From IMG/VR virus record IMGVR_UViG_3300044640_001495, positions 62,001 to 126,000 of that record: a DNA stretch of 64,000 nt. One strand, 5' to 3'. Below the pieces are notes generated by a model, which did no database searches, was not told where the DNA came from, and saw nothing but the letters and a program-made list of their open reading frames with translations. The DNA is from a virus. This document shows, piece after piece, positions 7,632 through 27,125 of this stretch. Every line of letters begins with the position of its first letter. Position 1 is the stretch's first letter. Both the position numbers and the translations under genes were made by a program.

Positions 7632-8183
7632 ATGTTAGATAAGATTTTATTCTGTCCCCTAGATATAGAATTAGATAATATAGAGTTTTCTGTAGTGGAC
7701 GGAACCCCCGTCATATCTAAATATAATCCTTATTGGAATTCTACTCTCATTTCTGATGAAACGATCAAAAAAAATAATTTTGATGAAGTTCTTAAACAAT
7801 TACCATTTGATAAGATTTCCAATTTACAATATAAAATACAACAACAGACCGTAGATTCTCACGTAGATGTTTATCCAGAAATGAAATTCGCTCCTGGAGA
7901 ATATAAACATATACTAGATACAGAACCGGCAGGGTATCGATTTATTGTAAAAGGAGCAGTTGATAGTTTAGAAGTTTTTGATGGTACATCGTGGATTACT
8001 ACTAGAGTTCCTAAAATTCCTTGTGCGTATATTTTAAATTCTACTTCTGCAATTCATAGAGTTAAAGAAGACAAACAACGAACAACGATCTATATAAGAG
8101 GTTGGTTAGATAAGGAACGACATCTAGAACTATTAGAAAAAAGCCTAGAAAAATATAGCCAATATGTTGTTTGGAAAAACTAG
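7632..8183 (+). CDS. Aspartyl/asparaginyl hydroxylase-like oxygenase
   Basis: The 183-residue protein carries SHVDVYPE (His77 and Asp79), then CAYILNSTSAIHRVKEDKQR with His142 and Arg150. This is the HxD...H...R order of cupin-fold Fe(II)/2OG oxygenases, most like the aspartyl/asparaginyl beta-hydroxylase type. The substrate is unknown. It is the first gene of the AT-rich metabolic island. Its end overlaps the convergent next gene by four nucleotides. Confidence 0.68.
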   Translation: MLDKILFCPLDIELDNIEFSVVDGTPVISKYNPYWNSTLISDETIKKNNFDEVLKQLPFDKISNLQYKIQQQTVDSHVDVYPEMKFAPGEYKHILDTEPAGYRFIVKGAVDSLEVFDGTSWITTRVPKIPCAYILNSTSAIHRVKEDKQRTTIYIRGWLDKERHLELLEKSLEKYSQYVVWKN

Positions 8184-8884
8184 TGAGTATGTTGTAGACT
8201 AGAAATTACTTTGGCAACATTCTCTGTAGTCATAGCTACATTAAGTATAAGATGTAGACTGTTATCTACCCAACTAATAGTGCGATGTGTCATCCTTGTG
8301 TTGAGATAATAGACTCTGCCATGTTCTATCTGTAGTTTTCGATCATCCATCCACCAATCATAGTCCAATGGTCCACAATTGTTTAAGAACACAATTAAAC
8401 GGAAAACATCTCTAGGCATTGACGGATGGTCTCTATGGGGGACAAAATAACCCCCTGTATCCGACCGAATCAAAAATGTCCTGCCCAACTGATCCCACTC
8501 ATCTAAAAAAGGTCTAAGACTATGGCAGGTATCGTAGACTACAGTCTTTTGACTGAACTCCAACTCACTCAGCCGGCGTTTGGCTGCATATGATGCTTGT
8601 GCTAGACTAGGATTGGTTTTATGATCTGTGCCGGGCAAACATGTAAGGGTGAGAGATTTTCTGTTATTAGGCCTGTCTGTTCTAGGAAGATAGTCTTGCC
8701 AGTCGTCTTTAAACTGTGCAATCTCCTGCATAACTTGTCCGCAGTCTATCTTCCATTTTAGCGGTTCAAAAACTCCTAAGTTGAGTAGGCTGACTTCGTT
8801 AGTAAGATTCTCTAGGCTTACGTTATTAGGCGAATAAGATTGACTTCTTCCACTTACACCTGGGGGGACCACTATATTATTCAT
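8180..8884 (-). CDS. Putative Fe(II)/2OG oxygenase (Asp/Asn hydroxylase-like)
   Basis: This 234-residue protein has VPHRDHPSMPRDVFRLIVFL around residues 147-166 (HRDH for iron binding). Later TRMTHRTISWVDNSLHLILN provides a distal His. The spacing fits small aspartyl/asparaginyl hydroxylase-like enzymes. A taaggat sequence stands 9-10 nt upstream of its ATG. It is the last gene of a minus-strand run with the PP-loop and desaturase genes, suggesting joint expression. Confidence 0.7.
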   Translation of the reverse strand: MNNIVVPPGVSGRSQSYSPNNVSLENLTNEVSLLNLGVFEPLKWKIDCGQVMQEIAQFKDDWQDYLPRTDRPNNRKSLTLTCLPGTDHKTNPSLAQASYAAKRRLSELEFSQKTVVYDTCHSLRPFLDEWDQLGRTFLIRSDTGGYFVPHRDHPSMPRDVFRLIVFLNNCGPLDYDWWMDDRKLQIEHGRVYYLNTRMTHRTISWVDNSLHLILNVAMTTENVAKVISSLQHTH

Positions 8885-8926
8885 TGACTAATCCTTAAAA
8901 ATTTTTCTAAAAGTTCTTGAAACATG

Positions 8927-9859
8927 TTATTTCGCCAATCTTCTTAGAAACTCACCAACAGGCATTTTCCATTTATCAGTATAAGGTTTATATGCTGATA
9001 AAAACTTCTGCTGTATTTGGTCACAACAATCTTGGATTAATTCGCATCCATGATATTTTTCCCTTATTTCTATATTCCAATTTTTTTGATAAATTCTATA
9101 TTTGGCATATCTAGAGTTTATAGTTTCACTTGGTGGAGATTGAAATAATTCCAACATAATAGGATCATAGCCAACTGATAACACAATTTCAGGAGTCATC
9201 TGAAAAAAATTAATAGCTGCTGTCATGTTGTTTGCTATGGCGTATCTACACCAAGATAAGATATATTCATATTCTACGTATTTCCATTCGCCATCTAATC
9301 TATTTGCATAAAAGTCACCATTCCCCAAAACAGGTATACCATTTAGGTTAAAATATACATGATCCATTAATTTCATTGTAGGCAACATTTCCGCTTGGAA
9401 ACATTTTCCTTGTTCTGCCATTCTTAGAGATTCCGGAGAACCTAACCAGGTTAGTACATCTATATCTACATAGATAACTTCAAAATTTAATTCTTTAGAT
9501 AATTTTTCAACCACTTCTATTTCGTGTAAGTTTAAATTTTTGTTAAATCTATTTGTTATAACCTTAAATGGTTGTCCTAATTCTAAGAAAGCTCTAACCA
9601 CAACTTCGCTATCAGCCCCTCCGCTTAACAACACATAAGGAAGTTTGTTCACAGTTTTTGAGTAATTGCTAATTATTTCACAGACATTGATACACTCATC
9701 TCTGAACGAGCTAGGAGTTCTAGTTGCTTTAGAGTACCAACATTGAAATGCGTCTGATTGGTGTTGTCTTAGATTGTACTGGTTTCCATTGTATCCAAAT
9801 CTAAAATTTTGATCCATCTCAAATTTTATTTTTTGACCGGATGAGCTAACAGAGTACAT
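8927..9859 (-). CDS. PP-loop ATPase (asparagine synthase-like)
   Basis: This 310-residue protein has the PP-loop signature LLSGGADSEVVVRAF at residues 77-91. Such proteins activate a carboxyl or carbonyl group by adenylation for amide or thio transfer. There is no N-terminal glutaminase domain, so it would need free ammonia or a partner amine. A gggag site 8 nt upstream supports the start at 9859, though an in-frame ATG at 9817 is possible. It overlaps the desaturase gene by 34 nt. It is paralogous in layout to the protein at 13299-14468. Confidence 0.75.
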   Translation of the reverse strand: MYSVSSSGQKIKFEMDQNFRFGYNGNQYNLRQHQSDAFQCWYSKATRTPSSFRDECINVCEIISNYSKTVNKLPYVLLSGGADSEVVVRAFLELGQPFKVITNRFNKNLNLHEIEVVEKLSKELNFEVIYVDIDVLTWLGSPESLRMAEQGKCFQAEMLPTMKLMDHVYFNLNGIPVLGNGDFYANRLDGEWKYVEYEYILSWCRYAIANNMTAAINFFQMTPEIVLSVGYDPIMLELFQSPPSETINSRYAKYRIYQKNWNIEIREKYHGCELIQDCCDQIQQKFLSAYKPYTDKWKMPVGEFLRRLAK

Positions 9860-10593
9860 GCATCAAACTCCCATTTTTTTCCGCTTACAGATTTTCCAAA
9901 ATCAAAACTAGACGGCATTTGATGATGATTATTATGCCATCCGTTTCCCCAAAACATTAAGCCTAACATAGGGATATTTCTTGATTTATCTTTAGTTTCA
10001 AAATTTCTATATCCAACGTTGTCACTATGACAGAATGTATTAATAAGTCCCTCACCATGAAATGCAACAATTGTTGGCACAATAGCAAACCAATATAATA
10101 AATTTAAATCAATCAATCCCAGAACTATCCACGATAACAAAATAATTACTTCATAATACTTGGCTGTGAATGCCATTTTTTTATCACGTACTAGGTCAAC
10201 AGCAAACTTGTAGTTTACATTGGTAGGATCATGTTTTAAAATCCAACCCACAAAAGCATGCCATCTTCCAAAAATTGGAGAATGTTCGTCTTTTTCTGTA
10301 TCGGCAAATCTATGATGATATCCTCGGTGTACCGCGGCCCACCAGATTGGATGACCCTGGCATGATAACACACTGGCATAAATTATCAAATTCTCTGCCC
10401 ATGATTTTAAAATGATCGATCTATGAGATGCCCATCTATGAAGTCCTATTGCTACTCCGTACCCACCAATAAAAATATAGCCTGCTAGAAAATACAATAG
10501 ACTGGTAAAATTGTAATCTACGAAAAAAAACAACAAAACCAATAGTATGTGTAAAGGGAAAAACGTAGTTAACAGGTATTTGTAATTTTTCAT
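9826..10593 (-). CDS. Membrane fatty acid desaturase
   Basis: This 255-residue protein has all three di-iron His boxes: HRWASH (52-57), HRGYHH (89-94) and WHNNHH (219-224). Hydrophobic membrane segments lie at residues 8-45 and about 145-175. It belongs to the acyl-CoA/acyl-lipid delta-9 desaturase family, which inserts double bonds in fatty acyl chains at the membrane. It is one of three desaturases in the island. The gene overlaps the following PP-loop gene, suggesting coupled expression. Confidence 0.9.
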   Translation of the reverse strand: MKNYKYLLTTFFPLHILLVLLFFFVDYNFTSLLYFLAGYIFIGGYGVAIGLHRWASHRSIILKSWAENLIIYASVLSCQGHPIWWAAVHRGYHHRFADTEKDEHSPIFGRWHAFVGWILKHDPTNVNYKFAVDLVRDKKMAFTAKYYEVIILLSWIVLGLIDLNLLYWFAIVPTIVAFHGEGLINTFCHSDNVGYRNFETKDKSRNIPMLGLMFWGNGWHNNHHQMPSSFDFGKSVSGKKWEFDACTLLAHPVKK

Positions 10594-10609
10594 AGAGGGA
10601 TGATTCCGA

Positions 10610-10616
10610 TTAAATA
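10610..10616 (+). promoter_or_regulatory. Late-type promoter element close to start codon
   Basis: TTAAATA is followed by 7 nt and ATG 10624. This supports ATG 10624 over the upstream in-frame ATG at 10600. Confidence 0.35.
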
Positions 10617-10623
10617 TATTTAT

Positions 10624-11223
10624 ATGATGCCAAAATCCCTATCGCTTAAATCGAATCCCGGAGAGGACTTGTGGAATGAATGCATGGAAACTATAAAATC
10701 TCGGTGCTGTGCAGATCCATTGTATGAAAATTATGTAAATCTAACTCCTGCACAATATTATTATTTTGTGACAGCGATACACGAAAATAAGATTGTATCC
10801 TTTGGTGCCATAGAATATTCTCCTCACAAATGGGGAGAGAAAATTGCAAGAGTATTAACTAGATTTTGGATACATCCAGATTTTAGAAGCAACGGATTAA
10901 CCAAGTGGGGCCCTAGTGCTGTTAGATTTAGTCCAATTATACTTAACGCTCAGCTTGAATTTTTAAATTCACAGAATAAAATAAAAGTTGCTATGATCAC
11001 AAGAGAAGGAAAATACTCGAAAAGTTTTAAAGAAATAACAAAACTTGCATCGTCTGTTTCAGTTGATTCTTTTGAAATATTAGAAAATATATACAATGTC
11101 TGCGGAGACTCGAACGACGATTCGTGTTATCAAATGGTAGCACTGTCGTCAATAAGCCATGAAGACAAATGGAATGTCTTTTCCGAAGCAATATCTGCTG
11201 GATTCTTTAAAGGACCAAATTAA
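10624..11223 (+). CDS. GNAT-like acetyltransferase (putative)
   Basis: The protein of about 199 residues has a GNAT-like centre: IVSFGAIEYSPH (a beta strand pair), then LTRFWIHPDFRSNGLTKWG, which resembles the acetyl-CoA-binding motif A (V-x-P-x-x-R-x-x-G). The remainder is not recognised, so the call is tentative. The start may alternatively be ATG 10600. The stop overlaps the next start by one base, so the two genes are coupled. Confidence 0.5.
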   Translation: MMPKSLSLKSNPGEDLWNECMETIKSRCCADPLYENYVNLTPAQYYYFVTAIHENKIVSFGAIEYSPHKWGEKIARVLTRFWIHPDFRSNGLTKWGPSAVRFSPIILNAQLEFLNSQNKIKVAMITREGKYSKSFKEITKLASSVSVDSFEILENIYNVCGDSNDDSCYQMVALSSISHEDKWNVFSEAISAGFFKGPN

Positions 11224-12074
11224 TGAAGTTTTACGTAAAAGATTGTCCTGCGCACCTGTCATTGTTCCAGTGGATATACGAACAGAGCGATTTCTATACA
11301 GCAATAAATGATATTGCTACATCAACTAAAGTAGACGATATAATAGAATTGCCTCACAAAATTGATATTCCTTCACTTGTAAAAGATACCCTATCAGCAC
11401 TGGAAACGTTTGGAACCAAAGGTTGGCAAACAACCAAAGGTCAAAGTAAGGCCTACGGTGGTCTCAGCATGGTATACAACCCAGATCTAATAGACACAAT
11501 TGATCCTAATCAACATACACTAGGCACACCTGTAAACGCTCCGGATCAATTTTATTACGGCAGTACAGAAAATTTTCGTTCTACAAGAAATACATACTTT
11601 GACAGTTATGGATTTAGAAAACTATCACCATGCATCTCACAAACTAATCTTAAAAATTTTATCAGTGAATTTCGTCTTTCACCTACACGAAGTAGGATAG
11701 CTGTGTTAGATGCCGACATGCATGATAGGGTAGGTGAAGAATTCCTTTGGCACAAAGATGAAACTATATTCGAAAATCTCAGGATCAACATTCCTATCGA
11801 CACTGATTCTTCTTTTCTATTCCAACTCGAAAATAAGCTGCCGACTCATTTAGAGCTAGGAAAAATATATACTTGGGATACAAATTTACCACATAGGGTA
11901 TATGCCACAAAAAAATCTACTAAAAAAAGAACCCATTTAGTATTAGGATTCACGCCCTGGATTGATTATATAGAAAATGAAGATTGCTTTGTATTAAATT
12001 CCCACTTTGGTAAATTACATCCGTTTGATATTCTTCTAAACGGATCAGCACATCAAAGCATTGGTCAGGTATAA
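11223..12074 (+). CDS. Aspartyl/asparaginyl hydroxylase-like oxygenase
   Basis: In this 283-residue protein, FLWHKDETIFENLRINIPI near residues 177-195 gives the first His and Asp and an RINIPI strand. LELGKIYTWDTNLPHRVYAT (about 216-235) gives the distal His, and KKRTHLVLGF the 2OG-binding Arg. The pattern is that of aspartyl/asparaginyl beta-hydroxylase-like enzymes. The N-terminal 150 residues are unassigned. It is translated immediately after the GNAT-like gene. Confidence 0.72.
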   Translation: MKFYVKDCPAHLSLFQWIYEQSDFYTAINDIATSTKVDDIIELPHKIDIPSLVKDTLSALETFGTKGWQTTKGQSKAYGGLSMVYNPDLIDTIDPNQHTLGTPVNAPDQFYYGSTENFRSTRNTYFDSYGFRKLSPCISQTNLKNFISEFRLSPTRSRIAVLDADMHDRVGEEFLWHKDETIFENLRINIPIDTDSSFLFQLENKLPTHLELGKIYTWDTNLPHRVYATKKSTKKRTHLVLGFTPWIDYIENEDCFVLNSHFGKLHPFDILLNGSAHQSIGQV

Positions 12075-13306
12075 TTAACAATTATAGAAGAAATTAAATT
12101 TTGATATTTTTCGTTTAAATCGTTAAGATCACTACCTGATATATAAACATATCCGTTATTGCTAATTGCTAAATCGTTCCTTGGAAGATTAACTTTATTA
12201 TTAGTTGGTAATTTAATATAGTCTGCAAGAAAGTCTTTTTTAATCTCTATGCTTTTAATGAGACCCGGTTTTAATCCTAAATCTCTTTTCATACTACACT
12301 TGCTTTTGTTTAACAACATATTTTTATTTTTAAGAATAGAGTTAACTAACTTTGATGCATAGTGATTTTCTCCAGAGTATTGCAATAGATGGCATCCTAC
12401 GGAAACTCGAGCTGCAAAATCAATGAAATAAATATTTCCCTCTTTTAATATCACATCTAGCATGAACGGACAATTATCTAACTCAGTTAAAGAAATAAAC
12501 TTTTCTAATTTAATTTTGATATTTTCATAAAAATCGCTGTTAAAATATTTAGACGGATACACTAATGCTGTTTCAGCCGCATAGGGATATGAATTAGATT
12601 CTATATCATAAAAAAAATCTAAACTAAGAGATTTATTAAGTATGTGTCCAATCACAGAGATTATTGGTCCATCAATATATTCCTGAATTATGTAATCACT
12701 ATCTGCCGAATAATATTCAAAAGTTTTAAATTTTTCACCATGGCTTTCTTGATAATCGTGTACTTTAACATCGACGTCTTTAAAAAAATCTACAAGACTT
12801 TCTCTAGAAGAAATTATTTTTATCCCCAAACTTGCCATTCCCCCTGACGGTTTTACTAAACATGGAAATTTAATATCTGAAGATACAATGTTTAATGTTT
12901 TTTTATTTTTAACAATTTGATAAATTTTAGGAACATTGATCTTTAGATCTTTCCATATTTTGTAATAAACTATTTTTTCTTTAATTTTTTCGTATGATTT
13001 TAATTTAATTCCCGGTAGATCAAATTTACTGTTTATTTCAGCAATTAATTTCATATGATGATCGGGGAATGTAGGATAGATATATTGATATTTTTTTGTT
13101 TCTAATAATTGAGAAAGTAAATTTAAAAATTGATCGGTAGTATCAACAACAAATATGTTATCAAATTTAGATAGATGTGGCTTCATTAGATCAAATTCGG
13201 GATGATCTTTAGGAACAATTATATCTAAATTATAACCTTGATTTATTAAATCATAGATCGTAGATAAATGATGATATCCGCGACATAACAACAAAATATT
13301 ATTCAT
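12065..13306 (-). CDS. ATP-grasp ligase
   Basis: This 413-residue protein has the ATP-grasp layout. After a Rossmann-like preATP domain comes KFPCLVKPSGGMASLGIKII near residue 145. YIIQEYIDGPIISVIGHI is near residue 205, and the catalytic-loop stretch FMLDVILKEGNIYFIDFAAR is near residue 285. Such enzymes join a carboxylate to an amine, thiol or peptide through an acyl phosphate. The substrates are unknown. The gene overlaps the adjacent PP-loop gene by eight nucleotides, so the two ligase-type enzymes probably act together. Its DNA is markedly AT-rich. Confidence 0.8.
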   Translation of the reverse strand: MNNILLLCRGYHHLSTIYDLINQGYNLDIIVPKDHPEFDLMKPHLSKFDNIFVVDTTDQFLNLLSQLLETKKYQYIYPTFPDHHMKLIAEINSKFDLPGIKLKSYEKIKEKIVYYKIWKDLKINVPKIYQIVKNKKTLNIVSSDIKFPCLVKPSGGMASLGIKIISSRESLVDFFKDVDVKVHDYQESHGEKFKTFEYYSADSDYIIQEYIDGPIISVIGHILNKSLSLDFFYDIESNSYPYAAETALVYPSKYFNSDFYENIKIKLEKFISLTELDNCPFMLDVILKEGNIYFIDFAARVSVGCHLLQYSGENHYASKLVNSILKNKNMLLNKSKCSMKRDLGLKPGLIKSIEIKKDFLADYIKLPTNNKVNLPRNDLAISNNGYVYISGSDLNDLNEKYQNLISSIIVNYT

Positions 13307-14468
13307 TTATTAATCTCACAAAATGCCACTTTGAAAATAAATGTTGATATCTTCCTCTTACTTTTCCAAAATCTCGTTGGCTTCTTTCCACTCCTAAATA
13401 CAATCTTTTATCTAATTGAGATAAAAATAGACTATTCATATCTAAAAAACTATCACGACATTTGGTTAATTCTGGATGCTCAAAAATCCAAAAATGTTTA
13501 TCTTCTCTGTCTGCAATATTTGGTTTATCAGCCTGAAAATTATTTGTCCAGTTATCATATAATACTTGCCTTGCTACAGAGTTTTGCATTCTAATAGATA
13601 ATAATGTAAAATCCAATGGCCAATCTTTACTTACATCTGAATAATAATATTGTCTTAAATGAAAATTATCATCAACATATGATGACAACTGATAGGCTTG
13701 TTCCATAGCTAATATTGGGAATTTTGGAGACCAATAAAAATATTCAGTTCCGTATCTATTTTCTTGTGAAGGAATTCCCATCCCTGTACCAGTGTCGGTA
13801 AAACTCATAAACCATTTATTATCTCTATAAGCTAACAACGGTTTATCTATTCCATAAATAGATCCAACTGTTTTACCCTTATTTAATTTGAGAAATTCCG
13901 ATTTACTATATGTCAGCATAAAAGGTATTTCTATATCATTCCATGTGTTAACATGATGCCATAAATCTTCTGTATAAATTTCAGGACTTAAATTATCTGT
14001 CCAATCTGCAATATTGATTTTAATCTGAGGATGATATTGTGACAGCCAATCAAGAACAGGTTTAATGGCAAAGTCCCATTCACTAAGAGTGTTCCTAGCC
14101 GAAGTGTCTAGTGTATTGGCCTTGTAAACTTGAGATTTTATAGCGGCCATTGGCCATTTCACACAAACTTCGTCTAATTTAATACCGTTGTCTATAAAGG
14201 ACCTAAGAACATTATAGCTGTCAGCGCCTCCCGAAAAATATAAAATTAGATAATCGTAGCTATCTCTAATCTGTTGAGCACGTTGTTGATAAAGTTTTTT
14301 GAGAGAAACTTTCCCCAACAAGGATCTATCAAAATTGTTCCAAATTTGATCAAAATATATGTAACTAACTTCCTGATTGGTGTCGGTAGCAAATACCAAT
14401 GCTTGAAATTTATTTTTAAATTTCGTAGCACCTACCTGCCAAAATCCTTCTACTTCTTGATTAAACAT
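13299..14468 (-). CDS. PP-loop ATPase (asparagine synthase-like)
   Basis: This protein of about 389 residues has YLILYFSGGADSYNVLRSF with SGGADS at residues 79-84, exactly where it lies in the paralogue at 8927-9859. The start at ATG 14468 is preferred because TATAAATA lies 5 nt upstream of it; two in-frame ATGs lie further upstream (14474 and 14486). The long C-terminal half is not recognised. It probably adenylates a substrate carboxylate. Overlap with the ATP-grasp gene suggests an operon. Confidence 0.72.
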   Translation of the reverse strand: MFNQEVEGFWQVGATKFKNKFQALVFATDTNQEVSYIYFDQIWNNFDRSLLGKVSLKKLYQQRAQQIRDSYDYLILYFSGGADSYNVLRSFIDNGIKLDEVCVKWPMAAIKSQVYKANTLDTSARNTLSEWDFAIKPVLDWLSQYHPQIKINIADWTDNLSPEIYTEDLWHHVNTWNDIEIPFMLTYSKSEFLKLNKGKTVGSIYGIDKPLLAYRDNKWFMSFTDTGTGMGIPSQENRYGTEYFYWSPKFPILAMEQAYQLSSYVDDNFHLRQYYYSDVSKDWPLDFTLLSIRMQNSVARQVLYDNWTNNFQADKPNIADREDKHFWIFEHPELTKCRDSFLDMNSLFLSQLDKRLYLGVERSQRDFGKVRGRYQHLFSKWHFVRLINE

Positions 14469-14473
14469 GTTCA

Positions 14474-14481
14474 TATTTATA
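14474..14481 (-). promoter_or_regulatory. T4-late-type promoter (TATAAATA), leaderless mRNA predicted
   Basis: On the minus strand TATAAATA is followed by 5 nt and ATG 14468. In T4 late promoters this spacing puts the start site at the A of the ATG. Confidence 0.6.
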
Positions 14482-14510
14482 GACAAAAAAAATTATGGAA
14501 AATTAATATA

Positions 14511-14517
14511 ATAAATA
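14511..14517 (+). promoter_or_regulatory. Late-type promoter element close to start codon
   Basis: ATAAATA is followed by 7 nt and ATG 14525. It is divergent from the TATAAATA at 14474-14481. Confidence 0.5.
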
Positions 14518-14524
14518 CTTTACC

Positions 14525-15019
14525 ATGATATTACAGCCACTATATAAATTTATCAATTTCCAAACTTTACAGAAAGAAGTTTTGGAATTGGTAAAAAAAA
14601 TTAACGTTAACGACAATCAGCTAATATGTCAAGGATTAGAAAACGGTTCAAATGATTGGATCACAGGCATTGGTCGTATTGAAGAATTAGAAGAACAACA
14701 GGAACGAAATTATAAATTTATATATCCAGAGCTTCGTGGGACACTTCTAGAAAAATTTATTAAAGACCACAATGGTTTTAGAACTAGAATAATGTTAATG
14801 AATTCTAGAAAATGTTATTCTATCCATCGAGATCCAACCCCTAGATTGCATTTACCTATAATCACAAATGATCAGTGTTGGATGATATGGCCATATAAAA
14901 ATGAATGCCATCAGCTACATGAGGGAGTTGTGTATCGAGCAGATACAACACAAGATCACACTTTTATTAATGGATCTTTAGATCAAATTAGAATACACAT
15001 TGTAATGTGCATTGATTAA
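14525..15019 (+). CDS. Small Fe(II)/2OG oxygenase-like protein
   Basis: The 164-residue protein contains KCYSIHRDPTPRLHLPI near residues 98-114 (HRD iron-binding pair and a following Arg/His). Near the end, TTQDHTFINGSLDQIRIHIV supplies the distal His and an Arg. The overall size is that of a minimal cupin oxygenase. A late-type element lies 7 nt before the start. The next gene, also oxygenase-like, follows after six nucleotides. Confidence 0.62.
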   Translation: MILQPLYKFINFQTLQKEVLELVKKINVNDNQLICQGLENGSNDWITGIGRIEELEEQQERNYKFIYPELRGTLLEKFIKDHNGFRTRIMLMNSRKCYSIHRDPTPRLHLPIITNDQCWMIWPYKNECHQLHEGVVYRADTTQDHTFINGSLDQIRIHIVMCID

Positions 15020-15025
15020 TAATAT

Positions 15026-15997: not shown

Positions 15998-16010
15998 ATT
16001 AGTTCCTCGT

Positions 16011-16017
16011 TTAAATA
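16011..16017 (+). promoter_or_regulatory. Late-type promoter element
   Basis: TTAAATA lies 22 nt before the radical SAM gene start at 16040. It is divergent and overlapping in space with the minus-strand element at 16024-16030. Confidence 0.35.
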
Positions 16018-16023
16018 CACTAT

Positions 16024-16030: not shown

Positions 16031-16039
16031 CTAAGAGAT

Positions 16040-16963: not shown

Positions 16964-16964
16964 A

Positions 16965-19365: not shown

Positions 19366-19370
19366 ACCCT

Positions 19371-19377
19371 TATTTAA
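19371..19377 (-). promoter_or_regulatory. Late-type promoter, leaderless mRNA predicted
   Basis: Minus-strand TTAAATA is followed by AGGGT (5 nt) and ATG 19365. Confidence 0.5.
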
Positions 19378-19382
19378 TTAAA

Positions 19383-20195: not shown

Positions 20196-20198
20196 AAA

Positions 20199-21635
20199 AT
20201 GCAAGTACTCATACTCACTACTAACACTGATCCTCGTAGACAGGTACGATATCTTGGACCATACCAGATAGCTTGGTGGTTGAGATCTAATGGCTATTCA
20301 ACGCAGGTACTTGATTACATTTACTTTATGACAAAGGAACAGAGATTATCTCTATTAAAAAAATTCATTACGACAGAAACAAAAATAGTAGGATATGCTC
20401 CTTTTGCTTTGCTTAAAACAAATCAAAGATTTGTACATGGTGAACAACTAATTCATGATATCCTAGATGAAGTCAAAGAAAATTTTCCCTGGGTTAAAAT
20501 TGTCATCGGGGGAGTCTGGGCAATAAATTGGATCAACTACGGTCGGAAAAAAATTAATTGGAAGGTAGATGCTGTGTTTAAAGATGAAGCGGAACACAGC
20601 TTTCTCGAATACTGCCATTATATTTTTAAAGGATCTTCTCATCCTAAGTTTACCATAGAAAACGATGTTAAGATAATACATCCTACACAAAAATATGATA
20701 TTCAAAATTGTTCAATGCGTTATGAAAAAAATGATTTTATCCTACCAGAAGAATCTCTTCCTTTAGAATTAAGTAGAGGTTGTATATTTAAATGCAAGTT
20801 TTGTCAATATCCTAACATAGGAAAAGACAAAGATGATTTTAATAAATCTATGGAGAGTATTAAACAATCTTTAATTCATAACTATGAAAACTTTGGAACC
20901 ACTAGATATCATCTATCAGATGATACACTGAATAGCCATAGAGAAAGAACAAGAGCATTCTGTGAGATGGTAAAGCAATTACCTTTCACAATAGAATATA
21001 TAGGATATGCTAGACTAGACCTGTTGTACATATGGCCGGAACAACAAGAACTATTACCCGAAAGTGGTTTGGTAAGTTGCCATTTTGGTATCGAATCATT
21101 CGACCCCGAATCTTGTAAAATCATAGGAAAAGGTTGGGGCGCCAAAAATAATAAATCTTCACTTAGAGACATCAGAACAAAATGGGGTGATGATGTGATA
21201 ATAAACTGCTCTATGATAGTGGGCCTTGGAAAAGAAACAGAACAAGACTGGCAAGATTCTCAAGAATGGTTTATACAGAATAAAATTCACGACTGGTTTT
21301 ATAATGTGCTATCGATACATAAAGGCGTTGCATCAAGTGAATTTGAAAGAGAATATGAAAAATATGGTTATAGATTTATTAATGATAGTGATTGGGAATG
21401 GGTTTCTAGCCATATGACTAGAGACAGAGCCACCGAATGGGTTAACAATAATATAAAAAAAATAGCTGGTATAGCAGTTCCTAGTGTTTGGAATTATTCG
21501 GCGCATAGAAATATAGGATTTTCCAAACAAGAGATTCTCGACAGCAATTATCTAGATCTTTTCGAAATCCGAGTAAAAAATCAGATGACAGAAAAACTTA
21601 TAGAAAAATATTATAAGCTGGCAATGGAGTATTAA
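20199..21635 (+). CDS. B12-binding-like radical SAM enzyme
   Basis: The 478-residue protein has an N-terminal Rossmann-like segment (LTTNTDPRRQ...ENFPWVKIVIGGVWA, residues 1-110) of the cobalamin-binding type, without an obvious canonical DxHxxG. ELSRGCIFKCKFCQYPNIG near residues 190-208 follows, with CxxxCxxC for the 4Fe-4S cluster. Such enzymes methylate unactivated carbon or phosphorus or perform ring chemistry in natural-product pathways. It is flanked by two oxygenase-like genes three and one nucleotides away, so they are almost certainly co-transcribed. Confidence 0.85.
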   Translation: MQVLILTTNTDPRRQVRYLGPYQIAWWLRSNGYSTQVLDYIYFMTKEQRLSLLKKFITTETKIVGYAPFALLKTNQRFVHGEQLIHDILDEVKENFPWVKIVIGGVWAINWINYGRKKINWKVDAVFKDEAEHSFLEYCHYIFKGSSHPKFTIENDVKIIHPTQKYDIQNCSMRYEKNDFILPEESLPLELSRGCIFKCKFCQYPNIGKDKDDFNKSMESIKQSLIHNYENFGTTRYHLSDDTLNSHRERTRAFCEMVKQLPFTIEYIGYARLDLLYIWPEQQELLPESGLVSCHFGIESFDPESCKIIGKGWGAKNNKSSLRDIRTKWGDDVIINCSMIVGLGKETEQDWQDSQEWFIQNKIHDWFYNVLSIHKGVASSEFEREYEKYGYRFINDSDWEWVSSHMTRDRATEWVNNNIKKIAGIAVPSVWNYSAHRNIGFSKQEILDSNYLDLFEIRVKNQMTEKLIEKYYKLAMEY

Positions 21636-21636
21636 C

Positions 21637-22218
21637 ATGGAAAAATGTTTTAGAAAACTTAATCTTGGAATTCCCGAAGATCATAAAATTTTTAAAGAAT
21701 ATCGTAGTTTCAATTATAGTCAGGTAGAAGTTAAATTATATGATTCGTCAAAAACTTTTAAACAATATAATCTACCTAAAGACTATTTTTTAGGAACCGA
21801 AGTACACAAAGTAATGTGTGATCTAAATTTACGTGCATCTATATTTTTAATAGAAGCCAACCATTTTTACAATTGGCATAGAGACGCATGGCGGAATATA
21901 ACTCTTAACTTGACGCTAGGTGAGGATGAAAATTATCTTGTTTTATTCGCTCCTGATGCAAATCCTAAAGAATCTACTGGGTCTATGATGTACGAAAGAT
22001 TTATCGAACTCAAATACGATCACAACAAATTTGTGTTATTGAACACACAAATTCCACATTTCACTGTCACTACAGGAATCAAAGATAGGTATCTATTAAC
22101 AATTGCACATTATTCTGGAAAACCAACAGAGTCTCTAAAAAATCGACCATGCGACGATTACACAGAATTTGAAAATACACTTCAATATTTCGCTGAACGG
22201 AATCTAGTCAAAGATTGA
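21637..22218 (+). CDS. Small Fe(II)/2OG oxygenase-like protein
   Basis: The 193-residue protein has ANHFYNWHRDAWRNITLNL near residues 74-92 (HRD iron pair) and FVLLNTQIPHFTVTTGIKDR near residues 130-149 (distal His and following Arg). This is the same minimal pattern as the products at 7632 and 14525. The start immediately follows the stop of the radical SAM gene. Confidence 0.62.
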   Translation: MEKCFRKLNLGIPEDHKIFKEYRSFNYSQVEVKLYDSSKTFKQYNLPKDYFLGTEVHKVMCDLNLRASIFLIEANHFYNWHRDAWRNITLNLTLGEDENYLVLFAPDANPKESTGSMMYERFIELKYDHNKFVLLNTQIPHFTVTTGIKDRYLLTIAHYSGKPTESLKNRPCDDYTEFENTLQYFAERNLVKD

Positions 22219-22860
22219 TTATAAAGAAATTAAAAAATCATTATTTCTATATTGATTTTTCAAATAACCAATTCGATAAAGAAGATCTACATTCCAGGTT
22301 CTATTTCTCATCATTTGCCTATATCTTGGATGTGACGGCATTGTACCAGCAGGAATAATTGCCTCGTCAAAAAATTCATACCTATCTTTTATTATTGGTA
22401 TCTGTTGTCTCATTCTATTCCAGCGGTTGGTAGTTTTAGGATTAGCCACAATAAAATCATAGGAATAATATCCTATACTTTCTGCATGTGAAATGAGCAA
22501 TGTGCTGGTGTCAGCAATGCCATTATCCACAGCATTGAAAATAGAATTATTAGGACTACAAAGTATTATACATTGCCGCCAAGATTTGATCATATTCCAG
22601 AACTGACCAATAGCAATACATTTAATATTTTCTTCTTTGTCAAATACTAGAGCAATCTTATTTTTAGTTTGAGTTTCATTAGAAATCATTGTTTCGATAG
22701 ATTTGATAAAAACAGAGATATCAAAATCTTTATCATCAAAAGGATACGACCAAATTTTGGAAGTGTTCTGTTTATAATTTTTGGTGTCAACTAATAATTT
22801 TTCTAGATATACTAGATCATCTATAGTTCCAAACCTAGAGGAATATTCAGGATTTATCAT
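22219..22860 (-). CDS. Hypothetical protein, possibly acyltransferase fold
   Basis: This 213-residue protein begins with a GNAT-like N-terminus (SRFGTIDDLVYLEKLLVDTK). A central NKIALVFDKEENIKCIAIGQ strand pair and a later helix follow. The acetyl-CoA loop is not recognisable, so the fold call is weak. It overlaps the PLP enzyme gene by 14 nt on the same strand, which suggests a functional pair. Confidence 0.5.
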   Translation of the reverse strand: MINPEYSSRFGTIDDLVYLEKLLVDTKNYKQNTSKIWSYPFDDKDFDISVFIKSIETMISNETQTKNKIALVFDKEENIKCIAIGQFWNMIKSWRQCIILCSPNNSIFNAVDNGIADTSTLLISHAESIGYYSYDFIVANPKTTNRWNRMRQQIPIIKDRYEFFDEAIIPAGTMPSHPRYRQMMRNRTWNVDLLYRIGYLKNQYRNNDFLISL

Positions 22861-23782
22861 AGAAGTTGTGCGGCAACATTTCTGATTTTAGATATTTTGA
22901 AAAACAAAGTCTATTTTCTTTTATTCCACGATTGTATTCTTCGAATGACTCAGTAGAAGTTGCGAAAAAAACACACTTTGACATTTCTACTTTTAAAATT
23001 TCACAAAACTTTTCTTGTACTGCACGATATTTTTGATAATTGTAATCGGCAGTATATCGTTGTAATAGTTTTAATCCAACCGCAGCCGACAGTCTATTGA
23101 CGTATTTGTTTTTATTATAAACATATAAAGCATCATCATTGTCTTCTTTGGTTAGTCTCATGCCGATTCTAAGGTGTTGTACCGGAAAATTTTTACTAAG
23201 GCTGAATGTGATATCAGTAATACATTCATAAGAAAAATCAAAATTGATTCCGCCACAAACTCCAAAGTAGCAACAGTCGATTAACACTGGAACTTTTAGT
23301 GCTTCACAAGTTTCTAAAACCGAATCAGTCATTACATGTTCATTTCCGGTGCCAGCGAACGGAAGACTAAAAATCACCACGTCATTTTCTTGTATTGGTT
23401 CATCTTCAATACAGACACTCTGATCAAAATATAGCTTGGCAGCTATTGAATGATACATGTATTCGCCTCGAAAATACCTTAACCTACGATTACGATTTTT
23501 TAGATAAAATTTATCAAAAGCTTCTGTGGTTCCGTTTGAAAAAGCGAGGCCTTGGAATTTTTCCAAACCTATAACTTGATTAGAGGTGGTTTTCATTATC
23601 CATGCTTTATACTCTTTTGTAAATTTATCGTGTATTTCATCATCATTCATACAATCATTTTGCAGAACATCAACAATGATATCAGATACTTCTTGTTCTA
23701 AATCTTGATCTTTAATGCAATGTACACTGCCAAAAGGTAATTTTTTTAATTCTAGTAATTTATTCCAAGTATTGTTTTTCAT
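22847..23782 (-). CDS. PLP-dependent aminotransferase-like enzyme
   Basis: The start at 23782 gives 311 residues. ATG 23782 lies 4 nt after an ATAAATA element; an open frame further upstream overlaps the divergent gene and is rejected. Fold-type I features are visible: LAFSNGTTEAFDKFYLK (cofactor phosphate region), PVLIDCCYFGVCGG (Asp that pairs with the PLP pyridine nitrogen) and ITFSLSKNFPVQHLRIGMRL (candidate Schiff-base lysine in SLSKNF). It is shorter than typical enzymes of about 390 residues. The reaction and substrate are unknown. Confidence 0.72.
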   Translation of the reverse strand: MKNNTWNKLLELKKLPFGSVHCIKDQDLEQEVSDIIVDVLQNDCMNDDEIHDKFTKEYKAWIMKTTSNQVIGLEKFQGLAFSNGTTEAFDKFYLKNRNRRLRYFRGEYMYHSIAAKLYFDQSVCIEDEPIQENDVVIFSLPFAGTGNEHVMTDSVLETCEALKVPVLIDCCYFGVCGGINFDFSYECITDITFSLSKNFPVQHLRIGMRLTKEDNDDALYVYNKNKYVNRLSAAVGLKLLQRYTADYNYQKYRAVQEKFCEILKVEMSKCVFFATSTESFEEYNRGIKENRLCFSKYLKSEMLPHNFYDKS

Positions 23783-23786
23783 GAAA

Positions 23787-23793
23787 TATTTAT
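23787..23793 (-). promoter_or_regulatory. Late-type promoter, leaderless mRNA predicted
   Basis: Minus-strand ATAAATA is followed by 4 nt and ATG 23782. It is divergent from the plus-strand ATAAATA at 23810. Confidence 0.5.
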
Positions 23794-23809
23794 CATAGCA
23801 CTTTATTGC

Positions 23810-23816
23810 ATAAATA
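23810..23816 (+). promoter_or_regulatory. Late-type promoter element
   Basis: ATAAATA lies 22 nt before the GTG start of the TctC-like gene. An acggag ribosome site lies between them. Confidence 0.45.
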
Positions 23817-23838
23817 TTTTCACTTACGGAGATGAGTA

Positions 23839-24741
23839 GTGATACAAAAATTTTTATTAGGACTGAGCATGATGTTTTTTTTATCTGCTCCCAGCCAAGC
23901 ATTCGACGCTGGTTCCCAACTCATTAAAGTGGTGATGCCATTTGCTCCAGGAGGCGGTGTTGATCAAACTTTTAGGCATTTTGAAAATTGGGCAGCGAAA
24001 AAAAACATTAAGTTTGTAGCAGTTTACAGACCAGGAGCCGAAGGATTGATTGGCATGAATGAAATTGCCGCAATGCCCAAAGACGGATATCATATTTCTT
24101 TTGCAACAGCCGGCACCATAGCCGTCCAAAGATTGAAAAATCCTCAAGCAGAATTAGAAACAGTGACGTTGATAAAAAATAGTATTATGGCGTTTGTCAC
24201 TCATAAAGATAGTGGCATACGGTCTCTAACTGATTTGTATCAAGGTAATCCAAAAACTCTAGCCTACGGCGCACCCGGACAACTAATGACTATACAGCAG
24301 TTAATAGAACTTTCAGATGGAAAAATGAAAAGTGCCACTCTTGTGCCCTACAAAGGTGGAGCTCCAGTAGTACAAGATATTGCAGGCAATCATGTGCAGT
24401 TTGCAGCAGTACCATTGTTGATCACAAAGAGTTTTGTTGATTCGGGAACCATCCGATTACTGGCTGTAGACAGCACAACTAGATTAGCAGAATATCCCAA
24501 CATTCCCACGTTTAAAGAAATCTTCCCTAAGTGGAAAAGTACTGACGGATTTGCCGTGGTATTGCCCAAGGGAACTGATACAAAAGCTGTAGAATTTTGG
24601 AATTCTATATTGAAAGAATATGTCACAGATCAAAAAGTACAAGCTGACTTTTTGAAAGACTACAATATGTCGCAAAAATTTGGTAAAGAAGAATTGGAAA
24701 AAACTGTTTCTAATGCAATTAACGCATTAGAAAAAAAATAA
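23839..24741 (+). CDS. TctC/Bug-family periplasmic binding protein
   Basis: This 300-residue protein has a signal peptide: basic MIQK, a hydrophobic FLLGLSMMFFLSA core and a probable cut after PSQA near residue 21. The mature start QLIKVVMPFAPGGGVDQTFR is the hallmark of tripartite tricarboxylate transporter receptors. Bug-type proteins bind small carboxylates such as citrate or nicotinate. No TctA/TctB membrane partners are in the window. Start is GTG with an acggag site. It may feed host transporters or bind a pathway product. Confidence 0.88.
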   Translation: MIQKFLLGLSMMFFLSAPSQAFDAGSQLIKVVMPFAPGGGVDQTFRHFENWAAKKNIKFVAVYRPGAEGLIGMNEIAAMPKDGYHISFATAGTIAVQRLKNPQAELETVTLIKNSIMAFVTHKDSGIRSLTDLYQGNPKTLAYGAPGQLMTIQQLIELSDGKMKSATLVPYKGGAPVVQDIAGNHVQFAAVPLLITKSFVDSGTIRLLAVDSTTRLAEYPNIPTFKEIFPKWKSTDGFAVVLPKGTDTKAVEFWNSILKEYVTDQKVQADFLKDYNMSQKFGKEELEKTVSNAINALEKK

Positions 24742-24771
24742 TATGCACCTTGCTGTCATAAGAAAAATGTC

Positions 24772-25536
24772 ATGAATATCAACCAATACATCGATAGGGT
24801 AAAATTTAAAACCCTACCACAAGATTTTAATCATCAAGATGGTAAGAACTATGAAAGCTCTTACGAATACACCAAGACCTTTAGCAACTATCATTTTGAT
24901 AAATTTAAACAGGAGCATGAGGGTGAATGGTATCATCGGCTGGGAAGATTCAAAGGAGATTGGGCAGACGATGTTGCTAAAATTATAGATAAATCAAAAT
25001 CATTATCCTGGGATCAAAGTACGGCGGCAGGTCAACGTCCGGGATTCCCTGGGGGTGTTAGTCCAATGAGAACACAAGAGCAAAACGACAGAAAGGCTCA
25101 CGGTTTAGACCATGTTGATCATACTAACTTAGTTTTAGAAGAATATCTAGATCAGTTTCCTAAAATTAAAAAAATGGTAGACCATTGGCATTTAGAAAAA
25201 GTTAGTTATCGTTGCCATGTGCAATGGCCTGGTCAGACGTTCGCCATGCACATTGATAAATTATGGCATCGCAATCCCACAGACCCGTCAAAAATAGTTA
25301 GGATTATTGTACATCTAGAAGATTACGAACCCGGCCAGATCCTTATATACGGTAATGCAGTACACACTCAGTGGAGAGCTGGCGATGTTCATATGTTCGA
25401 TACCTTGAATGTTCCGCATGGAACTTTTAATATTTCAAATAAACCAAGACCAAATATCACTATCACAGGATTGAGATCAGCCCTTACTGATCAAAGATTG
25501 CAAGAAGCTACTGCTGAATCAGAATATTGTATATAA
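24772..25536 (+). CDS. Fe(II)/2OG oxygenase-like protein
   Basis: The 254-residue protein has VQWPGQTFAMHIDKLWHRNP near residues 152-171 (HxD) and VHMFDTLNVPHGTFNISNKP near residues 204-223 (distal His), followed by RPNITITG with the likely 2OG Arg. The pattern is like that of aspartyl/asparaginyl hydroxylase-related oxygenases. The N-terminal 140 residues are charged and unassigned. It lies between the TctC-like and sulfotransferase genes on the same strand. Confidence 0.66.
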   Translation: MNINQYIDRVKFKTLPQDFNHQDGKNYESSYEYTKTFSNYHFDKFKQEHEGEWYHRLGRFKGDWADDVAKIIDKSKSLSWDQSTAAGQRPGFPGGVSPMRTQEQNDRKAHGLDHVDHTNLVLEEYLDQFPKIKKMVDHWHLEKVSYRCHVQWPGQTFAMHIDKLWHRNPTDPSKIVRIIVHLEDYEPGQILIYGNAVHTQWRAGDVHMFDTLNVPHGTFNISNKPRPNITITGLRSALTDQRLQEATAESEYCI

Positions 25537-25574
25537 TGCATCCGTAAAAAACATCGCATATGGTAAAATAAAAA

Positions 25575-26315
25575 ATGAATAAAAACTTTGTTATTGTTGG
25601 GACTCCTCGTAGCGGCACTACGTTTGTCTGCGATGTGCTGAACGAATTTGATGATATTTGGATTCCAGAGTTTCCTAATTACGAACCGTTTAATCCGCAT
25701 AACTTACACAGATTAGCTAACTCGATGAAAAATAATTCATTCGATCAAGATTTAATCATTAAAAAATTTATTAGTGTAAAATCAAAGAAAAATGTAGATT
25801 ATTTTGGTTTTAAAACTTTCTTGTCCTTTCACTCAGATTTAAAAAATTTAATTAAAGATAATAATCTAGATGTGATCTTAATTTTAAGAAAAGATATTTG
25901 GAAAGTCATAGGAAGTATGCTGATCGCAATAGACCATAATGACTACATAGGTAGCTCTAAAAAACATGATCCGTTTATTTTTGTTGAATCCAAAAGAGAA
26001 GTAAGAAGAATAATGACATTTTTCAATCAACTTTGTAGAACATATTGGGAACTAGAGAATTTATTTGCTAAAGATTCTAATATTATCGAAAAACTATATT
26101 TTGAAGATATTGTAAATAATAACATTGCAAACAATTTAGACACTTATTTTAACAAAAAAATTATTTTTGATCATAATTATAACGACACCGACGATATCAA
26201 TTCTTATATTGGAAATTTTGAAGAACTGCAAAGTTTAATTATAAAAGAAGTTAAAAAAAATCACACACATTATTCAGCCCTTCCTTCATATATTGTTAAT
26301 CAATTAGTGTTATGA
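25575..26315 (+). CDS. Sulfotransferase-family protein
   Basis: The 246-residue protein starts with a P-loop-like VGTPRSGTTFVCDVLNEF (residues 8-25), the PAPS 5'-phosphosulfate-binding motif. DVILILRKDIWKVIGSMLI near residues 95-113 corresponds to the 3'-phosphate-binding region with Arg and Ser. It would transfer sulfate from PAPS to a hydroxyl or amine of a small molecule, lipid or glycan. A kinase/nucleotidyltransferase fusion that might make or use an activated nucleotide lies 0.8 kb away. It overlaps the next gene by four nucleotides. Confidence 0.82.
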   Translation: MNKNFVIVGTPRSGTTFVCDVLNEFDDIWIPEFPNYEPFNPHNLHRLANSMKNNSFDQDLIIKKFISVKSKKNVDYFGFKTFLSFHSDLKNLIKDNNLDVILILRKDIWKVIGSMLIAIDHNDYIGSSKKHDPFIFVESKREVRRIMTFFNQLCRTYWELENLFAKDSNIIEKLYFEDIVNNNIANNLDTYFNKKIIFDHNYNDTDDINSYIGNFEELQSLIIKEVKKNHTHYSALPSYIVNQLVL

Positions 26316-26686
26316 TACTACAAAAAGTTATATTCGAAGAAAAAAATAGAAATGGCACAAGTGTGGATGATTTTTATTATCGAGGATTAGAAGAAAAACT
26401 CCAAGGAAAAAAAGGCACAGGAGTTAGAGCGTTAGCAGCTGATTTTATCAGACAGGGCAGAATCCTAGATAGATTTTTAATCTTAGATGAAACAGGATGT
26501 AAATTAGAAATTTATACTTTTTTTAAAGATGAAGAATCATTTTCTGAATTTATTAATCATCCTGTAAATCAAAATGCAAAAAAGTTTTGGCAAGATCGAG
26601 ATTGGCAAAGAACTGCCACAAAAACTGTAATTGCTGATTTTTTGAACGTGAGAAACAGACTCGGACAACTTAAATCTATAATCTAA
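26312..26686 (+). CDS. Hypothetical protein of the metabolic island
   Basis: The 124-residue protein is unrecognised. Its strand-helix-strand pattern and the segment FLILDETGCKLEIYTFFKDE followed by a helix resemble ferredoxin-fold (antibiotic biosynthesis monooxygenase-like) proteins, without diagnostic residues. It is translationally coupled to the sulfotransferase (ATGA overlap). It overlaps the convergent hydroxylase gene at its 3' end. Confidence 0.5.
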   Translation: MILQKVIFEEKNRNGTSVDDFYYRGLEEKLQGKKGTGVRALAADFIRQGRILDRFLILDETGCKLEIYTFFKDEESFSEFINHPVNQNAKKFWQDRDWQRTATKTVIADFLNVRNRLGQLKSII

Positions 26687-27125
26687 TTGATCGATTTGTT
26701 TTAAAGACCCAATCCCAAAAAGGTGTTCCGATACCATAATTGCATCTACTTTCTGTATGATGCAAATAATGCCATTGACCAGATGTGTACCAAGGATACA
26801 AATTGAATTTTCTATTGTGTTCTAGCCTTTCTTGTATAATGGCTGCATAAACATAAAATAAAATAATTATCCACCATTGACCGGTGATCCAGCTGAAAAT
26901 AAAAGTAGGTAGAACTTCAGTTATCCAATAATCAAACGTGCTAGGCCAATTGTCATTGAACAGAAAAATGTTATTCCAATGCCAAACTATCTTGTGTTTT
27001 TTAATATAAGCGTGATGATGAAAATGTAGTTTTGACAGAAATGAAATTTTATGACTGGCTCGGTGTATCCAGTATATCATAAAAGTCCATAGAAAGAAAT
27101 AAAATATTATTTCAATACCGATCAT
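26676..27125 (-). CDS. Fatty acid hydroxylase/sterol desaturase-superfamily protein
   Basis: The 149-residue membrane protein has IHRASH (near residue 20), HFHHHAYIKKHK (near 34), EHNRKF (near 116) and WHYLHHTES (near 131). These are the His clusters of the di-iron fatty acid hydroxylase superfamily. It is shorter than typical members, which have two more helices, but all His clusters are present. It abuts the kinase/nucleotidyltransferase gene (overlap of four nucleotides). It would hydroxylate an acyl chain or other lipid. Confidence 0.8.
   Translation of the reverse strand: MIGIEIIFYFFLWTFMIYWIHRASHKISFLSKLHFHHHAYIKKHKIVWHWNNIFLFNDNWPSTFDYWITEVLPTFIFSWITGQWWIIILFYVYAAIIQERLEHNRKFNLYPWYTSGQWHYLHHTESRCNYGIGTPFWDWVFKTNRSIRL

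Follow-up and report, generated by a model that had tools for sequence, protein, structure and literature searches.

The 64,000-nucleotide stretch analysed here (positions 62,001 to 126,000 of IMGVR_UViG_3300044640_001495, a 353-kb virus record; hereafter the window) holds at 7632-28300 an island of 26 ORFs that is 97% coding, uses both strands and is bordered by a Mtd_N-type fibre gene on one side and by a tRNA-like RNA and thy1 on the other (Table 1). The island was AT-richer than its neighbours, as had been noted in a previous sequence-only reading of this DNA, with a GC content of 33.9% relative to 41.3% in the left flank and 42.9% in the right flank and a GC3 of 0.265 relative to 0.364 in the flanks (Mann-Whitney p=1e-8). 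Genes within the island were evenly divided between the strands (13+/13-) while those in the flanks were not (38+/4-, Fisher p=3e-4). The fibre gene proposed as the left border was confirmed, varies among relatives and has homologs after the anchor that are 28-52% identical, and the phosphoesterase anchor gene was found in at least 599 places in IMG/VR. The proposed tRNA-like border was retained as a conserved RNA, kept with compensatory changes in 5 sequences including other phages, although no tRNA was called by ARAGORN at the right edge; an Rfam search of this edge gave no match. The T4 late-promoter motif TATAAATA was also tried and was not enriched.

Table 1 Features of the island and its flanks, in window coordinates
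Feature	Position	Strand	Evidence
Left anchor, phosphoesterase (phrog_547)	5096..5698	+	PHROG 7.7e-48
Tail-fibre-like gene (Mtd_N domain), directly left of island	5807..7591	+	Pfam Mtd_N 5.6e-7
2OG-oxygenase-like type B, weak, HxxD..H	7632..8183	+	profile link to 19335; no Pfam match
2OG oxygenase type A	8180..8884	-	profile link to 14525/11223; HxD..H
PP-loop type B (SGGADS)	8927..9859	-	QueC-like 1.2e-5
Membrane fatty-acid-desaturase family	9826..10593	-	Pfam FA_desaturase 5.7e-15
GNAT-like acyltransferase, weak	10600..11223	+	Pfam 9e-4, under cut-off
2OG oxygenase type A	11223..12074	+	member of alignment A8
ATP-grasp ligase	12065..13306	-	Pfam ATP-grasp_4 4.9e-9
PP-loop type A, nearly virus-restricted family	13299..14486	-	SGGADS motif; profile link to PP-loop B
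2OG oxygenase type A (Asp_Arg_Hydrox)	14525..15019	+	Pfam PF05118 2.2e-5, over cut-off
2OG oxygenase type A	15026..15601	+	profile link to 21637
Small orphan ORF, 131 aa	15602..15997	-	no Pfam match
Radical SAM enzyme (MoaA/TrsS-like)	16040..16963	+	Pfam 4.4e-17; NCBIfam below all cut-offs
TauD-family 2OG dioxygenase	16965..17795	-	Pfam 3.5e-56
Desaturase 2	17792..18553	-	Pfam FA_desaturase 3.8e-8
Desaturase 3	18553..19365	-	Pfam FA_desaturase 3.1e-13
2OG-oxygenase-like type B	19335..20195	+	alignment A4: H..R..H invariant
B12-binding-type radical SAM (PhpK/BchE-like)	20199..21635	+	Pfam 3.9e-14; NCBIfam PhpK 1e-20, under cut-off
2OG oxygenase type A	21637..22218	+	member of alignment A8
Conserved phage cargo protein (GNAT-like guess)	22219..22860	-	family GN2; no Pfam above cut-off
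Fold-type-I PLP enzyme, conserved Asp + SLSK Lys	22847..23902	-	AF2 pTM 0.77; Foldseek 2.0e-10
Exported TctC solute-binding protein	23839..24741	+	Pfam 3.1e-27; signal-like N-terminal segment
2OG oxygenase type A	24772..25536	+	profile link; HxD..H
Sulfotransferase-like	25575..26315	+	Pfam 2.2e-4, under cut-off
Small orphan ORF, 124 aa	26312..26686	+	no Pfam match
FA_hydroxylase-family membrane enzyme	26676..27125	-	Pfam 2.7e-13
APS-kinase-like + NMNAT-like fusion	27122..27916	-	Pfam 2.4e-11 (res 5-92), CTP_transf 4e-4 (res 159-186)
tRNA-like RNA, long variable region, island right boundary	28032..28141 (about)	+	compensatory pairs
Right-flank conserved gene	28398..28907	+	same junction in L168, L207, L220, L226, L227, L228
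PF13640 2OG-type protein, tenth, outside 7632-27125	28904-29452		
thy1 (thyX), conserved right-flank gene	29466..30128	+	Pfam 1.6e-44

Nearly all of the enzyme classes named in the sequence-only reading of a 20-kb island were confirmed by Pfam, profiles and models, and the folds were mostly as named rather than unrelated. The TctC receptor, the APS-kinase/NMNAT-like fusion and the two small orphan ORFs were absent from that reading. Exactly nine 2OG-type proteins, the number claimed, were located in 7632-27125 and consisted of six of type A, two of the weaker type B and one TauD, where oxygenases without a Pfam match of their own were tied to matched ones by iterative profiles. Within the type-A HxD...H triad H101, D103 and H145 were invariant and R156 nearly so across 24 phage sequences, and the oxygenase at 8180..8884 had a 71% homolog in one relative (L013). 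The nearest solved relative of the type-A enzymes was the caprazamycin beta-hydroxylase Cpz10 (PDB 7V4F, PMC9814697), nearly the whole of which is spanned by the type-A profile (7.7e-32), followed by L-proline cis-4-hydroxylase (1.1e-13), and these two neighbours point to amino-acid-like substrates. The phage members share low pairwise identity, and such substrates are a prediction for them. The type-B pair had no significant match to a curated family or solved member, including in PDB profile searches.

The three desaturases and one hydroxylase, the two radical SAM enzymes and the ATP-grasp ligase were each matched in Pfam. A viperin-like identity for the radical SAM enzyme (PADLOC 1.7e-15) was rejected as weaker than the TrsS/MoaA matches, and a defence-gene reading via PADLOC, which returned superfamily-level matches only, was not accepted. 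The PLP enzyme was upheld by its model, which matched fold-type-I aminotransferases at 2e-10 with D209 and K237 invariant, though it had no significant Pfam match. The acyltransferases and the sulfotransferase fared less well as the GNAT and sulfotransferase matches fell under cut-off and the protein at 22219 was left without a curated family. The desaturase His boxes (HR..H, HxxHH-type, HNNHH) were kept in 16 phage sequences with one variant, and desaturase 3 had no INPHARED match at 1e-5. A PDB profile search with the GNAT yielded nothing useful; among relatives it was accompanied by a desaturase in 10/10 loci. This strict link, together with three membrane-type desaturases and an FA-hydroxylase, would fit a remodelling of membrane lipids in which these enzymes modify fatty-acyl or amino-lipids and thereby alter the host membrane or free phosphate in the course of infection. 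Lipid desaturases are likewise known from cyanophages, also aquatic (Roitman 2018, as cited in PMC11480375), although in the present phages up to three occur per island and are coupled to GNAT and PP-loop genes. Lipid remodelling is nevertheless an unlikely explanation, as the type-A oxygenases resemble hydroxylases of amino acids and nucleoside antibiotics, it is not obvious what the PP-loop enzymes, TctC or the PLP enzyme would do in lipid chemistry, and the GNAT matches no lipid acyltransferase family.

Two PP-loop enzymes had been proposed, of which type B is supported by its QueC-like match and by a match of its alignment (A2) to NAD synthetase at 5.3e-7, while the weaker type-A assignment draws on motif, profile link and weak fold support. 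The SGGxDS motif was present in both window proteins and in nearly all relatives. PP-loop A had no Pfam, NCBIfam or PHROG match and PDB profile searches gave nothing useful; its AF2 model (pTM 0.86) had LarE and carbapenam synthetase as top Foldseek matches, which were weak (E 3e-3, TM 0.2-0.4). The family occurred in at least 577 viral contigs and, on the cellular side, in a single virus-like contig among 84,980 genomes. An exported TctC/DctP receptor gene (SBP) adjoined 47 of the 106 complete PP-loop A copies (44%), 44 of them on the same strand, and 38 non-redundant pairs co-varied (Mantel r 0.60, p 2e-4), with these co-occurrence statistics resting on seeded, related and partly redundant contigs. 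A hydrophobic N-terminus was present in 70 of 70 TctC proteins checked relative to 4 of 112 PP-loop A proteins, the TctC export signal being judged on hydrophobicity alone. In the window the PP-loop A gene does not adjoin its TctC gene and lies about 9 kb from it. The window TctC was 57% identical to a phage copy and about 32% identical to the best match in a sample of 274 genomes from a single bacterial class. It shares the Pfam TctC domain (3e-27) and a signal-like N-terminus with the solute-binding proteins of TTT transporters (TctC/Bug; PMC5812351, PMC11452294) and differs from them in being phage-encoded and, in relatives, coupled to PP-loop A. The scanned window ORFs included no TctA or TctB, so uptake would depend on a transporter of the host; TctA adjoins TctC in one relative (L081).

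The TctC-family proteins Bug27 and Bug69 bind quinolinate (PMC11452294), which raises the idea of NAD+ reconstitution or pyridine-carboxylate salvage as a counter-defence, where TctC would bind nicotinate- or quinolinate-like acids and the PP-loop and kinase-NMNAT proteins would rebuild NAD. The proximity of PP-loop B to NAD synthetase and of the PP-loop A fold to LarE, and the NMNAT-like domain in 27122-27916, agree with this. We consider it very improbable because the matches are weak, the NMNAT-like fusion was not recurrent among relatives, several divergent PP-loop paralogs occur in many islands and all of the oxidative enzymes would be left unexplained; no NAD-biosynthesis family scored over its own cut-off in Pfam or NCBIfam in the island. 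That the island serves to modify phage DNA or tRNA, or yields some other nucleoside product, is equally improbable. The nearness of PP-loop B to QueC/NAD synthetase, the radical SAM, TauD and Cpz10-like enzymes that recall nucleoside chemistry, and the flanking tRNA-like RNA and thy1 speak for it, while QueD/QueE-like and DNA-hypermodification genes were absent from the Pfam matches, the oxygenases have no close similarity to nucleic-acid enzymes and it is hard to place an exported receptor or membrane desaturases in such a scheme.

Relatives in IMG/VR carried the same families in shuffled sets at the same address, with anything from no cargo to about 23 kb of it. The distance from the anchor to the 28398-like gene was 5.5 kb in L057 and L067, without island families, and also 5.5 kb in L168, with an oxygenase, a GNAT and a desaturase; in the window it was 22.7 kb. 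Island-family genes reached a density of 33.8 per 100 kb directly downstream of the anchor relative to 0.34 around the clamp loader in the same clade, and were thus clustered rather than scattered in relatives. Recurrent modules included PP-loop A with the exported SBP, PP-loop B with a desaturase and GNAT, B12-radical SAM with a 2OG oxygenase, and PLP enzyme with a 2OG oxygenase. Extra matches in relatives were to TctA, tryptophan halogenase, carbamoyltransferase, Rieske and P450, and matches to ACP, ketoacyl-synthase and AMP-binding families were seen in relatives only, not in the window island.

The families, fixed address, variability, clustering and recurrent modules are direct observations, and we favour with moderate confidence the interpretation that the region is a hypervariable small-molecule biosynthetic-cargo locus carried by a clade of jumbo phages that live in freshwater and are related to T4. 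The earlier description as a tailoring cluster holds for the composition. A single pathway is a weaker reading, and since relatives hold different subsets, a set of modules that varies strongly from phage to phage at one fixed address describes the region better. No NRPS, PKS, terpene or RiPP-precursor core scaffold enzyme was matched by Pfam in the window island, and a pathway is therefore something that we infer. Mixed strands and variable content agree equally well with a hot spot of unrelated auxiliary genes, each acting alone on host metabolism without a joint pathway and each relative holding a different subset. Precedents for such independent genes are the hyperplastic regions of T4-like cyanophages (PMC2984593, PMC3037559) and an oxygen-minimum-zone myovirus island with tricarboxylate-transport genes so described (PMC8115048). 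This alternative is somewhat doubtful given that the PP-loop A-SBP and desaturase-GNAT modules recur beyond chance and that the content is strongly skewed to biosynthetic tailoring classes.

As a biosynthetic-cargo locus, the region would allow the phage to make modified small molecules during infection. A carboxylate or amino-acid-like precursor, taken from the cell or via the exported receptor and a TTT transporter, would be activated by PP-loop or ATP-grasp enzymes through acyl-adenylate or acyl-phosphate chemistry and then hydroxylated, desaturated, methylated, aminated, acylated and perhaps sulfated. Modules would be gained, lost and reshuffled between the phosphoesterase/fibre pair and the tRNA-like RNA, small gene and thy1. 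The serotype-like turnover beside a fibre gene suggests a product at an exposed interface, and we conjecture that it acts where evolution is fast, at the cell surface, the virion or against a competitor or defence. By analogy, this suggests that these viruses may swap chemistry modules as bacteria swap surface-antigen genes; Pfam gave no O-antigen or capsule genes (glycosyltransferases, flippase/polymerase) in the window island.

The hyperplastic regions and genomic islands described from T4-like cyanophages and other environmental myoviruses (PMC2984593, PMC3037559, PMC8115048) resemble this one in hypervariable cargo, a preferred site and T4-related carriers. They differ in that tailoring enzymes dominate here, the site lies between a fibre gene and the tRNA-like RNA/thy1, photosynthesis genes were not recognisable here, and a nearly virus-restricted PP-loop family occurs with exported receptors. 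Biosynthetic gene clusters on phage genomes (reviewed in PMC12360287) likewise include small-molecule tailoring genes, while the window has no recognised cluster core and its modules shuffle at one address. Hypervariable metabolic islands of T4-like phages were already known and what is new is the phage-specific enzyme-receptor cassette of PP-loop A and TctC. We tentatively propose that the two genes move together as a cassette whose products take up a carboxylate from outside and activate it. The cassette would thereby feed natural-product loci that are combinatorial and serotype-like, by which jumbo phages would assemble their own variable secondary metabolism. The pair is small enough for direct testing. 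If these proposals are true, widespread jumbo phages run a variable specialised metabolism in infection with enzymes drawn partly from families nearly confined to viruses, phage auxiliary genes would have to be read as modules of a locus open to exchange and not as genes stolen from hosts, and the island is a defined source of chemistry not yet known.

The earlier statement that no described phage pathway has this composition was borne out in the 50,697 phage records searched, where the query proteins had few matches or none. INPHARED searches by megablast and tblastn identified no close named relative. A search for pmoC, prompted by the idea of a methanotroph phage, had no match in nine records and its control likewise matched nowhere. 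The clamp loader was 56% identical to that of PA5oct-like Pseudomonas phages.

The window corresponds to positions 62001-126000 of a virus record of 353,123 bases. Between its fibre-like gene and a right-hand conserved block, 26 ORFs within 20.7 kb form an island of identifiable enzyme families and catalytic motifs, which has a fixed address, variable content and recurrent modules. The island is 97% coding, with a GC content of 33.9% vs 41.3% and 42.9% in the flanks and a GC3 of 0.265 vs 0.364, and its genes lie on both strands while flank genes run nearly all in one direction. Eight tRNA genes were located in the left 4.3 kb of the window.

The sequence-only reading had proposed an oxygenase-rich biosynthetic island of about 20 kb, and most entries in its enzyme list were borne out by Pfam and profile searches. 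Its nine 2OG-type proteins included six of type A, two weaker ones of type B (genes 7632 and 19335, named by start coordinate) and a TauD homolog; a tenth is located just beyond the island at 28904. In an alignment of 24 phage type-A sequences HxD...H was invariant and Arg nearly so. The type-A profile matched Cpz10, the non-heme enzyme responsible for beta-hydroxylation in the biosynthesis of caprazamycin, a nucleoside antibiotic (PMC9814697), at nearly full length (7.7e-32), followed by L-proline cis-4-hydroxylase (1.1e-13). The PLP protein was without a significant match in the Pfam search; its AlphaFold model (pTM 0.77) matched fold-type-I aminotransferases (2e-10), with the Asp and SLSK lysine both retained. 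The sulfotransferase and GNAT assignments scored under curated cut-offs. A solute-binding protein of the TctC type, whose N-terminus resembles a signal, had been overlooked. One ORF fuses an APS-kinase-like N-terminus to an NMN-adenylyltransferase-like C-terminus.

Island-family genes per 100 kb of coding sequence numbered 33.8 downstream and 12.2 upstream of the anchor gene, a phosphoesterase left of the fibre gene, vs 0.34 around 79 control clamp loaders retrieved with that of the window, in a seeded, mutually related locus set with mechanically called ORFs. These counts answer whether the genes are scattered in relatives, which would have spoken against the earlier reading: they are clustered. 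In the genome to which the window belongs, the island accounts for four of the five matches to type-A oxygenases; in a second record, of 356 kb, all nine matches fell within a stretch of approximately 22 kb.

For the anchor gene (gene 5096), IMG/VR contains 599 or more relatives; in many of them a fibre gene follows and then an island that draws on the same enzyme families but combines and orders them differently. Of 36 loci in which the sequence downstream of the anchor exceeds 5 kb, 25 contained one island family or more. Among loci covering both flanks, the interval from the anchor to the 28398-like gene was 22.7 kb in the window and 5.5 kb in three other loci, of which L168 contained an oxygenase, GNAT and desaturase, and L057 and L067 no island families. 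Differing PP-loop A islands in five further loci (L207, L220, L226, L227 and L228) are all upstream of thy1 and have a common end at the 28398-like gene and thy1. The tRNA-like RNA also marks the right junction in L207, L220 and L227; it has a long variable region, anticodon-arm sequences that differ among copies and compensatory changes in five predicted pairs, and was not called by ARAGORN or Rfam.

Coordinates of features in the window and in loci from other sequences
Feature	Sequence	Position	Remark
Fibre-like gene	window	5807-7591	left border; Mtd_N domain
tRNA-like RNA	window	28032-28141 (+)	right conserved block, first
Small gene	window	28398 (start)	right conserved block, second
thy1	window	29466 (start)	right conserved block, third
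tRNA-like RNA	L007
tRNA-like RNA	L207	15120-15230
tRNA-like RNA	L220	14175-14285
tRNA-like RNA	L227	15232-15345
Fused ORF	window	27122-27916
tRNA genes	window	33-4330
~100-aa protein	L200	9672-9992
~100-aa protein	L215	6640-6948
Amidotransferase, TctA, TctC	L081	10064-13132
Cytochrome P450	L232	11516-12652

The family assignments suggest that carboxylates would be activated by PP-loop and ATP-grasp enzymes, that oxygenases, desaturases and radical SAM enzymes would then modify the product, and that exported TctC proteins may bind carboxylates for TTT uptake. Because of these family-based roles, variable small-molecule biosynthesis during infection is favoured over the rival explanations that the genes are auxiliary genes acting independently, that they remodel lipids or modify nucleic acids, or that they reconstitute NAD. 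Whether it would serve to change the surface, decorate the virion, compete or counter defence is conjecture. Hypervariable islands are already known from T4-like phages, as are BGCs and lipid desaturases encoded by phages. Neither the literature nor the phage records searched offered a counterpart to the island composition, to the nearly virus-restricted PP-loop A family or to the pairing of that family with exported receptors encoded by phages; this is not proof of novelty, since literature coverage was open-access only.

PP-loop A (gene 13299) had no match in Pfam, NCBIfam or PHROG. The SGGADS motif is retained, a profile search ties the family to PP-loop type B, and the structures closest to its model (pTM 0.86) were LarE and carbapenam synthetase, both weak matches. 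It occurred in at least 577 viral contigs vs one contig in an 84,980-species genome collection, the two scans using slightly different search patterns. That contig (L112, CAIVYW010000332.1; 3.1 kb) carries PP-loop A, DctP-like, PP-loop A and PP-loop A genes in this order and no others, and is therefore probably viral DNA; its binning in a Methylococcaceae MAG is a possible host clue.

PP-loop A genes that are complete and have a neighbouring gene on each side numbered 106. A TctC or DctP gene adjoins 47 of them, sharing the strand in 44 cases and lying directly downstream on the shared strand in 35; in the window the PP-loop A and TctC genes are separated by about 9 kb. A hydrophobic N-terminus was present in 70/70 TctC proteins checked vs 4/112 PP-loop A proteins. 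Distances of PP-loop A and receptor proteins were correlated (Mantel r 0.60, p 2e-4) across 38 non-redundant pairs with mean identities of 30% and 21%, which fits a cassette inherited as a unit, with common phage ancestry also contributing. A protein of about 100 aa near PP-loop A (36 copies, 24 loci), without a Pfam match, is possibly a third cassette member.

A desaturase was present in all ten loci with GNAT (Fisher 6.5e-12, ignoring relatedness of loci), usually with PP-loop B. Islands of relatives also include tryptophan halogenase, carbamoyltransferase, Rieske proteins, acyl carrier protein, and ketoacyl-synthase and AMP-binding matches. One phage island (L081) features a glutamine-amidotransferase/peptidase C26, TctA and TctC consecutively, forming permease plus receptor, and on the viral contig L232 a cytochrome P450 (2.8e-17) adjoins PP-loop A, with similar genes in four further loci.
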